51,129 nucleotides of DNA, from positions 1 to 51,129 of the forward strand of contig JADGQV010000003.1 of the NCBI GenBank assembly GCA_017881465.1, written 5' to 3'. The notes beneath the pieces were generated by a model. It saw nothing but the letters and a program-made list of their open reading frames with translations. It had not been told where the DNA came from and made no database searches. Position 1 is the stretch's first letter; every line of letters starts with the position of its first letter. Shown here one piece after another: positions 13,668 to 17,968 of this stretch. The position numbers and the translations under genes were made by a program. Source of the DNA: Gemmatimonadaceae bacterium. GTDB taxonomy: Bacteria > Gemmatimonadota > Gemmatimonadetes > Gemmatimonadales > Gemmatimonadaceae.

Positions 13668-15536
13668 ATGAAGCGAGTCTTACGCGGGCGCGCCGCGATT
13701 CTGCCGCTGATCGCCCTGGCGGCCTGCAGCGGTGGGGACAAGAGCGCGGCCGCCGACAGCACTTCCAGCTCGGGTCCGCAGGCGACGTCGAGCGCCGCAA
13801 CGGGGACTGGGTCCGTGTCGGGCGCGCGAATCGCCGTCGCGCACGCCGGCCCTCCTGGTGAATGGCAGATGCCTGCGGGCGATTACGCGAGCTCGCGCTA
13901 CAGCGAGCTCGCTTCGATCACTCCGCAAAACGCGGCGAGTCTCCACGTGGCGTGGGCGTTCTCGACTGGCGTGCTGCGCGGGCACGAGGGACAGCCGCTC
14001 GTCGTGGGCAACACGATGTACGTCGTCACGCCGTATCCCAACGTCGCGTACGCGATCGACCTCGCGCAGACCGGACAGCCGCTCAAGTGGAAGTTCCGTC
14101 CCGAGAACTCCCAGCAGGCGATCGGCAGAGCGTGTTGCGACGTGGTGAATCGCGGCGCCGCCTACGCCGATGGAAAGATCTTCTACAACCTGCTGGACGG
14201 ACACACCATCGCCGTCGACGCGTCGACGGGCAATCAGGTATGGCGCGCGAAGATGGGTGATCTCTCGCGTGGCGAGACGATCACGATGGCGCCGATAGTG
14301 GTGAAAGGGAAAGTCATCGTAGGGTCGAGCGGTGGCGAGATGGGAGTGCGTGGCTGGATCGCCGCGCTCGATGCAAATACTGGAAAGGAAGTCTGGCGCG
14401 CCTACAACATCGGGCCCGACAAGGACGTGAAGGTCGGTCCCAAATTCAAGACGTTCTACGCCCACGACCGGGGGAAGGACCTTGGCGCCACGTCGTGGCC
14501 GGGCGACACCTGGAAAACCGGCGGTGGCGCGGTGTGGGGATGGCTCTCATATGATCCCGCGCTCAATCTCATTTATCACGGCACCAGCAATCCCGGACCG
14601 TGGAACGAGAACCAGCGCACCGGTGACAACAAGTGGACTGCCTCGATTCTGGCGCGCGATGCGGACACGGGCGAGATGGTGTGGGCGCTTCAGGTGACGC
14701 CGCACGACATGTGGGACTACGACGCTGTCAACGAGAACATCCTCGTCGACCTACCGATCAAGGGGCAGACACGCAAGGTGCTCGTGCACTTCGATCGCAA
14801 CGGCTTCGCATACACTATCGACCGCGCTACTGGCGAAATTCTCCTGGCGGAGCCGTTCGTGCCGATGAACTGGTCCACTGGAATCGACATGGCGACCGGT
14901 CGTCCCAAGGTCGTGGAAACGAAGAAGACGGCGCAGGATAAAAACGTGAAGGACATCTGTCCGAGCCTCGAGGGCGGTAAGAATCAGCAGCCTGCTGCGT
15001 TCTCCCCGCAGACGGGCCTCTTCTACGTTCCGACGAACAATCTCTGCATGGATTTTCAGGCACGCGCGGTCACCTACATCGCCGGCACGCCATTCATCGG
15101 CGGCAACGCGCCCGAGAAGGGAGGGCCGGGCGGTTATCGCGGCGAATTCATCGCCTGGGACGCCACGACCGGCAAAAAGATATGGGGAATCAAGGAGCCA
15201 TATCCCGTGTGGGGAGGCGCGCTCGCGACAGCGGGTGGCGTCGTGTTTTACGGAACGCTCGACGGCTGGTTCAAGGCGGTGGACGCCCGGAACGGCAAGG
15301 TGCTCTGGCAGTTCAAGGTTGGCTCGGGCGTGGTCGGGAATCCGGTGACATACACCGGCCCCGACGGGAAACAGTATGTCGCGATTTATGCGGGAATAGG
15401 TGGTGACATGGGACTTCTCATCGCCGGAGATGTCGCGGCCAATCTCCCGTACGATGTTCGCGAGCGGGGAACGACTCTGCCCGACATCGCCCGATGGACG
15501 AGCTGGGGCGGCGAGCTGTTCGTGTTTTCGCTGTGA
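13668..15536 (+). CDS. PQQ-dependent alcohol dehydrogenase lipoprotein, lanthanide-type signature
   Basis: 622 aa eight-bladed quinoprotein dehydrogenase of the methanol/ethanol family. The signal ends in a lipobox (LIALAAC), so it is probably lipid-anchored, which is unusual for soluble MxaF/XoxF/ExaA. The vicinal disulfide that stacks on PQQ is C156-C157 (GRACCDVVNRG). The metal region reads TPHDMWD350-Y-D352; the second Asp two residues after the catalytic Asp is the recognised mark of lanthanide-dependent enzymes (XoxF, ExaF/PedH), whereas calcium enzymes have Ala or Ser or Thr. Tryptophan-docking-like repeats (ALDANTGKEVWR, AVDARNGKVLWQF) define the blades. A strong AGGAG site precedes the ATG. 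A cytochrome c lipoprotein follows. The alcohol substrate is unknown. Confidence 0.92.
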   Translation: MKRVLRGRAAILPLIALAACSGGDKSAAADSTSSSGPQATSSAATGTGSVSGARIAVAHAGPPGEWQMPAGDYASSRYSELASITPQNAASLHVAWAFSTGVLRGHEGQPLVVGNTMYVVTPYPNVAYAIDLAQTGQPLKWKFRPENSQQAIGRACCDVVNRGAAYADGKIFYNLLDGHTIAVDASTGNQVWRAKMGDLSRGETITMAPIVVKGKVIVGSSGGEMGVRGWIAALDANTGKEVWRAYNIGPDKDVKVGPKFKTFYAHDRGKDLGATSWPGDTWKTGGGAVWGWLSYDPALNLIYHGTSNPGPWNENQRTGDNKWTASILARDADTGEMVWALQVTPHDMWDYDAVNENILVDLPIKGQTRKVLVHFDRNGFAYTIDRATGEILLAEPFVPMNWSTGIDMATGRPKVVETKKTAQDKNVKDICPSLEGGKNQQPAAFSPQTGLFYVPTNNLCMDFQARAVTYIAGTPFIGGNAPEKGGPGGYRGEFIAWDATTGKKIWGIKEPYPVWGGALATAGGVVFYGTLDGWFKAVDARNGKVLWQFKVGSGVVGNPVTYTGPDGKQYVAIYAGIGGDMGLLIAGDVAANLPYDVRERGTTLPDIARWTSWGGELFVFSL

Positions 15537-15574
15537 TGGCTAATGCAACCCTAGATCTTCGCGGAGGTATTTGT

Positions 15575-15706
15575 ATGCGTCCTGCTATGTCTGCCTTGTG
15601 TCTGGCTTTTGTGGCGGTTGCAGCGGCTTGCTCTGAGACTACGGCTACGATGGTGACGTCGCCGCTTGTGGGAGAGTGGATGTTCACGCGCCTCGGCCCT
15701 GATTAG
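15575..15706 (+). CDS. Tiny lipoprotein (43 aa)
   Basis: ATG 15575 is preceded by GGAGG with an ideal 9-base spacing. The peptide has a hydrophobic signal and a lipobox (AVAAAC, Cys19), leaving a mature part of only 25 residues ending LVGEWMFTRLGPD. It lies between the PQQ dehydrogenase and the cytochrome c on the same strand. LVGEW is a common first strand of lipocalin-like lipoproteins, so this may be the start of a truncated larger gene; equally it may be a genuine small subunit. No family was recognised. Confidence 0.55.
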   Translation: MRPAMSALCLAFVAVAAACSETTATMVTSPLVGEWMFTRLGPD

Positions 15707-15729
15707 TCGCTAAACTCGAGAATCCCAAG

Positions 15730-16299
15730 ATGCCTCGCTGTCTTCCGCAGCATTTGCTGATCCTCCTCATGTCGATCTCCTGTAGCTCACAGCGGAGTCA
15801 CGAGACAGCAGGAGCTGCGGGAGACACATCTTCGCGGAGAACGGGTACGACATCGGCAGCTGGTGCAGATAGCGCAACCAGCAACTACTTCGTTGCCGGC
15901 GACAGCCTGCGCTTCATCGAGCACACGGAAATCCTGCCGGCGGGATTTCCGTTGCAGATAAAGCCGCTGCCGATAAAGAATCTCTACGAGGGGGACAAAG
16001 GGGCAATTGCGACCGGCGCGAAACTGTACGTGGGATACAATTGCCTCGACTGCCATGGGGCGGACGGATCCGGCGCGATGGGCCCGAGCTTTCAGGACGG
16101 GCGGTGGCACTTCGGCGGATCGCCCGGTGATGTGTTCGAATCGATCTATGAGGGAAGGCCCGACGGGATGCCGGCGTGGGGAGGACGCATCTCCAACGAT
16201 CAGATCTGGATGCTGACAGCGTACGTGCGCTCGCTATCATCCAAGGATCTGAGCACCGAGAACTTCACCGGTAAAACGGTAGAACGCACCGGTCACTGA
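15730..16299 (+). CDS. Cytochrome c class I lipoprotein
   Basis: 189 aa. The signal ends in a lipobox (LMSISC, about Cys18), followed by a Ser/Thr/Ala-rich linker to about residue 50. The haem site is C105-L-D-C108-H109, with M147 in GMPAWG as the distal ligand. The GADGSGAMGPSF segment resembles cytochromes that take electrons from PQQ dehydrogenases (XoxG/c-L and cbb3-associated types). It lies 24 bases after the tiny lipoprotein and about 190 after the dehydrogenase, so it is the likely electron acceptor at the membrane. Confidence 0.9.
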   Translation: MPRCLPQHLLILLMSISCSSQRSHETAGAAGDTSSRRTGTTSAAGADSATSNYFVAGDSLRFIEHTEILPAGFPLQIKPLPIKNLYEGDKGAIATGAKLYVGYNCLDCHGADGSGAMGPSFQDGRWHFGGSPGDVFESIYEGRPDGMPAWGGRISNDQIWMLTAYVRSLSSKDLSTENFTGKTVERTGH

Positions 16300-17008: not shown

Positions 17009-17968
17009 CTAGGACGAGGGCGGTGCCGGTGGCACTCCTCCGAAAGCGTTGATAATCGCGAGCCCCATGTTGGCGAGTGTGAGCTGTGGCTCGTTGTCGA
17101 GAACCCAGCGCTGATCCTTGTTCTCCTTGGTCATCACGCAAGCCACGACGCGGTTGCGAAGGTACCAGAGCGTACACTCGGTTCGAACAGCGTCCGTCTC
17201 GCCATCCTTGTGGGCGGCGCGCGCTCCCTCGATGTAGCGCTGAAGCATGTAGTCCGTCGTGTTGTGCTCCAGGATGTCGAGCATAGCGGAATCGGCAGTG
17301 GGGTTCACCGCCTTGCCCTGCGCCATCAGCTCGAACAGATGCGCCATCTCGTTCGGAGTCGTCACACCCAGTCCGTACTTCACCGAGCTGTCCATCGCGA
17401 CGCTCGAGCTGCGGAGGAAACTCTTCGAATGAACGCGCGTGTGCTGGAGCCCGAGTGAATCCATCTTCGCCCAGACACGCCGGATGATGATCCGGTCGAG
17501 CAGAAGATTTGTCGCGGTGTTGTCGCTGATCGTGGACATGAGCCACACCGCGTCGTGGACGGTGAGCACCGTTCCGTTGTGAAGGAACTGGGTGACCCCC
17601 GAGCCCGGCACCTGGTCGATCTTGAGCACAGTGAGCGGATCGTCGAGCGAGAGCTGGCCCTTCGCCACGAGATCGTATACCGTCACGAGAATCGCAACCT
17701 TGATCAGGCTGGCGGTGGGAAAGGTCTCGTCTCCGCGCCGGTTGATGCGCGCGCCAGTCTCGAGATCGATGACGCTGTAACCGACGACGCCGTGATGCGC
17801 GTCCGCGATCGAGTCGAGCTTTCGGCGAAGAGCAGCGGTATCAGCGCGAACAATCTGTAGGCGGCCCACTCCTGTTTGGCCGACGCGTGCGGCAGCGCAG
17901 GCGATCACACCCGCGAGAAGGATCGCGGCGTAAGTGGCAACTACGCGTAGTGTGCGGGATCGAGTCAT
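17009..17968 (-). CDS. Class A beta-lactamase-fold serine hydrolase, atypical active site
   Basis: 319 aa with an N-terminal signal or membrane segment (residues 8-28). The nucleophile motif is S87-L-I-K90 and the second motif is S148-D-N150, both typical of class A. The third motif, normally K-T/S-G, reads K254-D-G256. The omega-loop stretch between residues 180 and 203 (SKSFLRSS to GVTTP) has no ExxxN-type glutamate where class A enzymes place the deacylating Glu166. It may therefore be slow at deacylation, acting as a DD-peptidase-like or ligand-binding protein rather than as a beta-lactamase. It is 11 bases downstream of the S9 peptidase on the same strand. Confidence 0.88.
   Translation of the reverse strand: MTRSRTLRVVATYAAILLAGVIACAAARVGQTGVGRLQIVRADTAALRRKLDSIADAHHGVVGYSVIDLETGARINRRGDETFPTASLIKVAILVTVYDLVAKGQLSLDDPLTVLKIDQVPGSGVTQFLHNGTVLTVHDAVWLMSTISDNTATNLLLDRIIIRRVWAKMDSLGLQHTRVHSKSFLRSSSVAMDSSVKYGLGVTTPNEMAHLFELMAQGKAVNPTADSAMLDILEHNTTDYMLQRYIEGARAAHKDGETDAVRTECTLWYLRNRVVACVMTKENKDQRWVLDNEPQLTLANMGLAIINAFGGVPPAPPSS

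Follow-up and report, generated by a model that had tools for sequence, protein, structure and literature searches.

The 51,129-nucleotide stretch of Gemmatimonadaceae DNA analysed here (the window; contig JADGQV010000003.1 of assembly GCA_017881465.1) encodes a XoxF-type, that is lanthanide-type, alcohol dehydrogenase that uses pyrroloquinoline quinone (PQQ), followed by a gene for a c-type cytochrome (Table 1). We consider it likely that the enzyme is a lipid-anchored XoxF that scavenges its PQQ and lanthanide, oxidises alcohol on its own, passes its electrons to the adjacent cytochrome and operates outside any recognisable methylotrophy. Two features of this locus deserve attention: the conserved lipoprotein signal on the dehydrogenase, and a host that apparently imports PQQ and is apparently not a methylotroph.

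The dehydrogenase and its active site

In a profile search, the dehydrogenase passed the curated threshold of TIGR03075 with 671.5 bits against a cut-off of 480.05, and its open reading frame (ORF) is preceded by a strong ribosome-binding site, AGAGGAGAGGAG. The best matches in the PDB were the methanol dehydrogenase 4mae (697 bits), which we take to be the XoxF of SolV, and the lanthanide XoxF structures 6oc5, presumably XoxF1 of M. extorquens, and 6dam. The identity was 54.5% to 4mae and 51.6% to 6oc5.

Residues were compared in a 97-row alignment composed of 30 rows from the window clade, 62 rows from other loci and the PDB chains. C156-C157, E224, N308, D350, D352 and R377 are conserved in 30/30 clade rows; we take these from earlier structural work to be the vicinal-cysteine, PQQ, metal and catalytic positions. 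The initial annotation had singled out the D350-Y-D352 motif as the lanthanide signature, and its numbering proved exact. The extra aspartate, D352, is invariant in all 92 loci rows (30 clade and 62 other), and the same position is Asp in 4mae, 6oc5, 6dam and 7o6z and Ala in the MxaF structure 4tqo. R377 is kept throughout the clade but is replaced by Lys in 19 of the 62 other loci rows.

Comparison of the window gene with L002, L003 and L004 gave ratios of nonsynonymous to synonymous substitution (dN/dS) of 0.034-0.040 over codons 61-622 and of 0.28-0.87 over codons 1-60, and the first 60 codons hold 12-16 of the 31-34 amino-acid differences. Purifying selection is strong on the catalytic part, whereas the leader is far freer to change. 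The dehydrogenase is a genuine, selected PQQ enzyme of a known kind and of the lanthanide type, and its metal would presumably be a lanthanide.

The lipoprotein signal

The N-terminus MKRVLRGRAAILPLIALAAC20 satisfies a PROSITE-like lipobox rule in the form in which we recall it (charged n-region, hydrophobic h-region and a cysteine within about 15-35). This rule and a separate hydropathy rule were applied to 32 distinct clade sequences of at least 70% identity, with identical sequences collapsed and L046, truncated at its N-terminus, left out. Each rule was passed by 27 of the 32 N-termini and at least one of them by 29, while the hydropathy rule accepted 0.8% of shuffled N-termini. The spacing from the cysteine to the domain is 25-45 residues across the clade. 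The lipobox LAA-C20 is real by these counts, and Cys20 would be acylated; the persistence of the cysteine and lipobox against a fast-changing leader points to a conserved lipid-anchor signal.

Outside the window clade, the hydropathy rule was positive in 2 of 19 sequences of the sister branch (Gemmatimonadales f2 and Gammaproteobacteria), in 10 of 30 of a branch whose neighbouring haem motifs we read as presumably cox-like, in 6 of 8 of an eight-row branch, and in none of five from Binatota/Myxococcota plus L105. We also counted by parsimony how often the anchor state changes along the tree, labelling the rows with a hand-made union of both lipobox rules and setting L013, L024, L025, L069 and L098 to 'unknown'. 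Eight changes were needed for the 92 labelled rows, whereas 100 shuffles required at least 25 and on average 30.7. The anchor is therefore inherited by whole branches and not a product of chance, and it extends beyond the window genus.

In all 27 rule-positive sequences of the clade, the residue directly after the cysteine is other than Asp. In E. coli, lipoproteins without Asp at this position are sorted to the outer membrane; by this rule, which is not general, the dehydrogenase would be held at the outer membrane.

Lipobox-positive XoxF relatives of about 53-56% identity (L056, L060, L061, L076, L077, L078, L083, L100 and others) occur in other Gemmatimonadota, in Acidobacteriota and in the isolate Phenylobacterium deserti YIM 73061, whose relative L077 is 55% identical. 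Among the matches listed, neighbouring cytochromes in this region of the tree often look lipobox-positive by eye. A search of the PMC literature, with matches judged as listed and most subscription papers outside its range, found no report of a lipid-anchored XoxF; PMC10260701 concerns a different lipoprotein.

The adjacent cytochrome

The cytochrome c neighbour proposed by the initial annotation is real and contains a single CxxCH motif. A CxxCH cytochrome follows the dehydrogenase in 27 of the 28 assessable clade members (26 counted by a pattern script and L026 by inspection of its neighbourhood), four relatives having too little downstream sequence; no cytochrome was found within 1.5 kb of the dehydrogenase in L013. 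The closest solved relatives of the window cytochrome are CcoP subunits, followed by cytochrome cL. The MoxG model matched at 1.3e-11 with 44.7 bits, under its cut-off of 147.8, and cytochrome cL structures matched at about 1e-8. The single CxxCH domain is common to the window cytochrome, cytochrome cL/XoxG and the CcoP-type class I cytochromes. The window protein differs from cytochrome cL/XoxG in that it falls below the MoxG cut-off, has CcoP as its nearest PDB match, and belongs to a group of which only part carries a lipobox. We regard this cytochrome as the probable electron acceptor of the dehydrogenase.

Lipoboxes had been proposed on both proteins. The one on the dehydrogenase is borne out across the clade, whereas that on the cytochrome holds only in part, being weak in the window (SISC, with Ser at -3) and present in close relatives. 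The suggested membrane-tethered rare-earth oxidation is accordingly retained for the lanthanide-type active site and the conserved anchor signal of the dehydrogenase, with a variable anchor on its partner.

PQQ supply

The initial annotation treated an absence of pqq genes as evidence against its reading. Searches that find pqqB, pqqC and pqqE in both G026 and G104 found none of the three in the window genome. Among the family genomes, pqqC (TIGR02111) was found in 11/49 and pqqB in 10/49; both occur in the same three of 27 genomes with a window-clade enzyme (dehydrogenase of at least 70% identity) and in 0/13 genomes of the window genus. pqqE exceeded its cut-off in 7/59 family genomes, the window genome not among them. 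The three window-clade producers of pqqB and pqqC, G026, G104 and G107, belong to one genus, and near-complete assemblies stand among the non-producers: G079, G212 and G254 (100%), G143 (99%) and G010 (98%).

A gene at C184:3435-5384 of the window genome encodes a PqqU homologue (33% identity to the E. coli protein over residues 39-695, E 6e-78) that carries F99, K274, R304, R365 and R536. An aromatic residue at 99, R304 and R365 constitute the PqqU signature in the available text of PMC12124388, and F99, R304 and R365 of the homologue agree with it. Eighteen of the 24 non-producing clade genomes have a PqqU match at E<1e-60, all 18 being signature-positive, and the signature is present in 28 of the 29 aligned homologues, L161 lacking it; L157, with an in-frame stop, was not in the signature table. 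Among the producers, G026 and G107 gave no PqqU match at 1e-30, and G104 gave one. The homologue in the window genome shares the PQQ-contacting residues of E. coli PqqU (YncD), but its gene lies apart from the dehydrogenase, and it would serve to transport PQQ.

After the signature check, we rejected the argument that a genome without pqq genes has no active enzyme. The absence of pqqB, pqqC and pqqE does not refute activity, because a PqqU-type importer homologue is present and scavenging of PQQ by non-producers is established in the accessible part of PMC12124388. The same source counts 183 PqqU-encoding Gemmatimonadetes genomes and reports that, overall, only 23% of PqqU producers have genes for PQQ biosynthesis, a published pattern into which PQQ scavenging would fit here.

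One-carbon metabolism and distribution

Of 33 genomes, three have Fae, and these are the pqqB/C-bearing G026, G104 and G107; in the window genus it was found in 0/13. Fdh-alpha matched at 1e-100 in 11/28 genomes, including the three producers, and in 0/8 genus genomes; only one of these matches exceeds the family cut-off. The class III formaldehyde dehydrogenase adh_III, which is linked to glutathione, was not detected at 1e-100 in any of the 16 genomes tested, which include the three producers and 13 genomes of the genus. A member of the dehydrogenase family was present at 1e-100 in 8 of the 13 genus genomes sampled and a window-clade copy in 7; the family member in G332 is 56% identical and has an in-frame stop.

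In the tree, the three producers branch off first within the enzyme clade. The simplest history would be that the enzyme was once tied to methylotrophy and later persisted, or was spread, among PQQ importers as a stand-alone oxidase, although the direction of this change is presumed. The genomes G026, G104 and G107, with the loci L024, L025 and L026, retain genes for pqq biosynthesis, Fae and Fdh-like genes as well as the dehydrogenase. Their genus offers a natural comparison for the loss of methylotrophy and of PQQ synthesis.

Proposed function and alternative explanations

We propose that the dehydrogenase leaves the cytoplasm, receives its lipid on Cys20 and is tethered to a membrane through a flexible linker of about 40 residues. 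It would bind PQQ and a lanthanide through E224, N308, D350 and D352, and its periplasmic substrate would be methanol, another short alcohol or an aldehyde. The adjacent c-type cytochrome would accept the electrons and hand them to the respiratory chain. Making no PQQ, the cell would take it up through the PqqU-type TonB transporter. Because Fae, class III formaldehyde dehydrogenase and formate dehydrogenase of the Fdh-alpha type all went undetected, the enzyme would most likely be an accessory electron source or a detoxifier rather than an entry to one-carbon assimilation.

One could instead suppose an ordinary soluble periplasmic XoxF from which signal peptidase I removes the signal peptide, the cysteine being incidental. 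The characterised XoxF enzymes known to us are soluble, and the 19-row sister branch mostly has ordinary signal peptides, with 2/19 lipobox-positive. We nevertheless think this unlikely, as the cysteine and lipobox are kept in 29/32 sequences despite the fast N-terminus and a flexible linker follows the cysteine. A calcium-dependent or metal-promiscuous PQQ methanol/ethanol dehydrogenase also seems rather improbable to us. The metal cannot be fixed from sequence alone and we know of no assayed member of the window clade, but the invariance of D352 over 92/92 rows, its absence from MxaF 4tqo and the lanthanide-dependent XoxF chains among the best PDB matches speak for a lanthanide.

The doubt is of a similar degree for a true methylotrophy module, in which the cell would grow on methanol and the enzyme would feed one-carbon assimilation. 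Such a module finds encouragement in the available text of PMC5103831, which reports XoxF and tetrahydromethanopterin (H4MPT) genes on one Gemmatimonadetes contig as well as high expression, and in the first-branching clade members with their pqq, Fae and Fdh-like genes. In the window genus, however, Fae, adh_III and pqqB/C were each found in 0/13 genomes and Fdh-alpha in 0/8, and only 7/13 have a window-clade copy. We give very little credence to an apo-enzyme or relic that, without PQQ synthesis, is no longer a quinoprotein, even though pqqB, pqqC and pqqE were not found in the window genome and an 'acido-empty-quinoprotein' family, TIGR04528, exists and gives a sub-threshold match. That match scores 349 bits where 650 are required, compared with 671.5 against 480 for TIGR03075; moreover, the catalytic, metal and disulfide residues are intact in 30/30 clade rows, dN/dS is about 0.04, and the genome holds an importer gene with the PqqU signature.

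Several observations weigh against a lipid-anchored, stand-alone oxidase on scavenged PQQ. Neither lipobox rule is passed by L013, L024 or L025, each of which still has a cysteine at the expected place, and the lipobox of the cytochrome is inconsistent (14/26 in the clade by rule). Six of the 24 non-producing clade genomes have no full-length PqqU match at E<1e-60 and yield fragments or weaker matches only. PqqU homologues (E<1e-70) also occur in genus members without the dehydrogenase and without pqqB/C (G093, G126, G246 and G306), so the importer is widespread in the group and not specific to the enzyme. The negative result on one-carbon genes is limited in scope: the window genome has no Fae and, at 1e-100, no adh_III or Fdh-alpha, other routes for formaldehyde and formate not having been searched. 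A gene missing from this genome alone is weak evidence, because the 2.58-Mb assembly is 93% complete in 198 contigs; the genus-wide pattern is stronger. Finally, both the use of lanthanide rather than calcium and the lipidation are predictions from the sequence.

A wider proposal, which we regard as tentative and rather doubtful, is that the window enzyme represents a widespread class of XoxF lipoproteins, so far unrecognised, in Gemmatimonadota and parts of Acidobacteriota and Pseudomonadota. Such enzymes might be held at a membrane, possibly the outer one, obtain PQQ by import and lanthanide from the environment, and act as stand-alone respiratory alcohol oxidases of PQQ-auxotrophic non-methylotrophs; tethering could keep the enzyme and its scarce cofactor beside the cytochrome and the importer. 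If many of these enzymes were anchored and ran on scavenged PQQ without a one-carbon pathway, xoxF genes and proteins in soil could not simply be read as methylotrophy, and the use of rare earths in soil would hinge on cross-feeding of PQQ. The relevance lies in the report, in the text available of PMC5103831, that a Gemmatimonadota XoxF was the most abundant protein of a grassland soil proteome.

Relation to known XoxF systems

The tree was rooted on one MxaF row, with L001, L023 and L072, each a duplicate of the window or partial, left out. The window clade (30 rows, support 99) joins the branch of f2 and Gammaproteobacteria in a group of 49 rows (support 100), apart from 4mae and from 6oc5/6dam. 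Lanthanide-type chains are nearest to the window enzyme by score and identity; the grouping of XoxF versus MxaF lies outside the reach of this tree because its root is its single MxaF row. The window enzyme shares with XoxF 4mae and 6oc5 the family, the vicinal cysteine pair, the PQQ and metal ligands and the extra aspartate, but it differs from them as a predicted lipoprotein with a linker on a separate, well-supported branch.

XoxF in Gemmatimonadota is not new. The initial annotation spoke of a group not known for methylotrophy, which overstated the surprise because XoxF is already documented in this phylum in the accessible parts of PMC5103831, PMC6784897 and PMC10875860. PMC6784897 describes methanol dehydrogenase genes as abundant in Gemmatimonadetes, and PMC10875860 describes XoxF3 systems with XoxG in which PQQ synthesis is possible in only 16 of 38 XoxF-containing genomes. 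The available text of these three papers makes no mention of a lipid anchor on XoxF, and that of an ocean survey (PMC11996626) mentions neither Gemmatimonadota nor lipoproteins. The soil systems of the three papers, as far as their text is available, share with the window the phylum and the lanthanide aspartate, mostly together with a XoxG cytochrome, but the cox, ctaG and NRAMP neighbours described for soil XoxF3 were not recognised beside the window gene. We did not adopt an assignment of the window gene to XoxF3: the comparison included no named XoxF3 references, and the 30-row branch with cox-like neighbours is distinct from the window branch.

Other features of the locus

Table 1. Coordinates of the dehydrogenase locus in the window.
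Feature	Position	Strand	Evidence
XoxF-type (lanthanide-type) PQQ alcohol dehydrogenase, 622 residues	13668..15536	+	TIGR03075, 4mae match, conserved residues, dN/dS
Signal peptide of the lipoprotein type (lipobox LAA-C; Cys20 predicted to be acylated)	13668..13727	+	Two lipobox rules
Low-complexity linker of about 40 codons, from predicted acylated Cys to propeller domain	13728..13850	+	Sequence; clade Cys-to-domain spacing of 25-45 residues
Codons of D350-Y-D352, the catalytic Asp and the extra Asp of the lanthanide type	14715..14723	+	Sequence, alignment
Predicted lipoprotein gene remnant, 43 codons of about 162	15575..15706	+	Alignment with L033
Single-haem c-type cytochrome, probable electron acceptor, weak lipobox SIS-C18	15730..16299	+	PF13442, 1.7e-12

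The short ORF between the dehydrogenase and the cytochrome had been taken for a tiny lipoprotein of the system. Alignment of close relatives showed that it corresponds to the first 35 and the last seven or so codons of a gene for a 162-residue lipoprotein, of which L033 has an intact copy, and we rejected it as a partner on this ground. It is the deletion remnant of a decayed gene and no component of the system. The full-length gene is absent from L031, L032 and the other aligned close relatives that reach past the dehydrogenase, and for the intact copy Pfam gives a sub-threshold Lipocalin_4 match alone.

An operon extending past the dehydrogenase and the cytochrome was also considered and rejected: clustering, mostly of out-of-frame ORFs, gave no reliable clade-conserved neighbour among the matches listed. 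In a plasmid search, the relatives obtained were all below 60% identity. Downstream of the cytochrome, on the minus strand at 17009-17968, lies a gene for a class A beta-lactamase-like serine hydrolase (PF13354, 9e-55).

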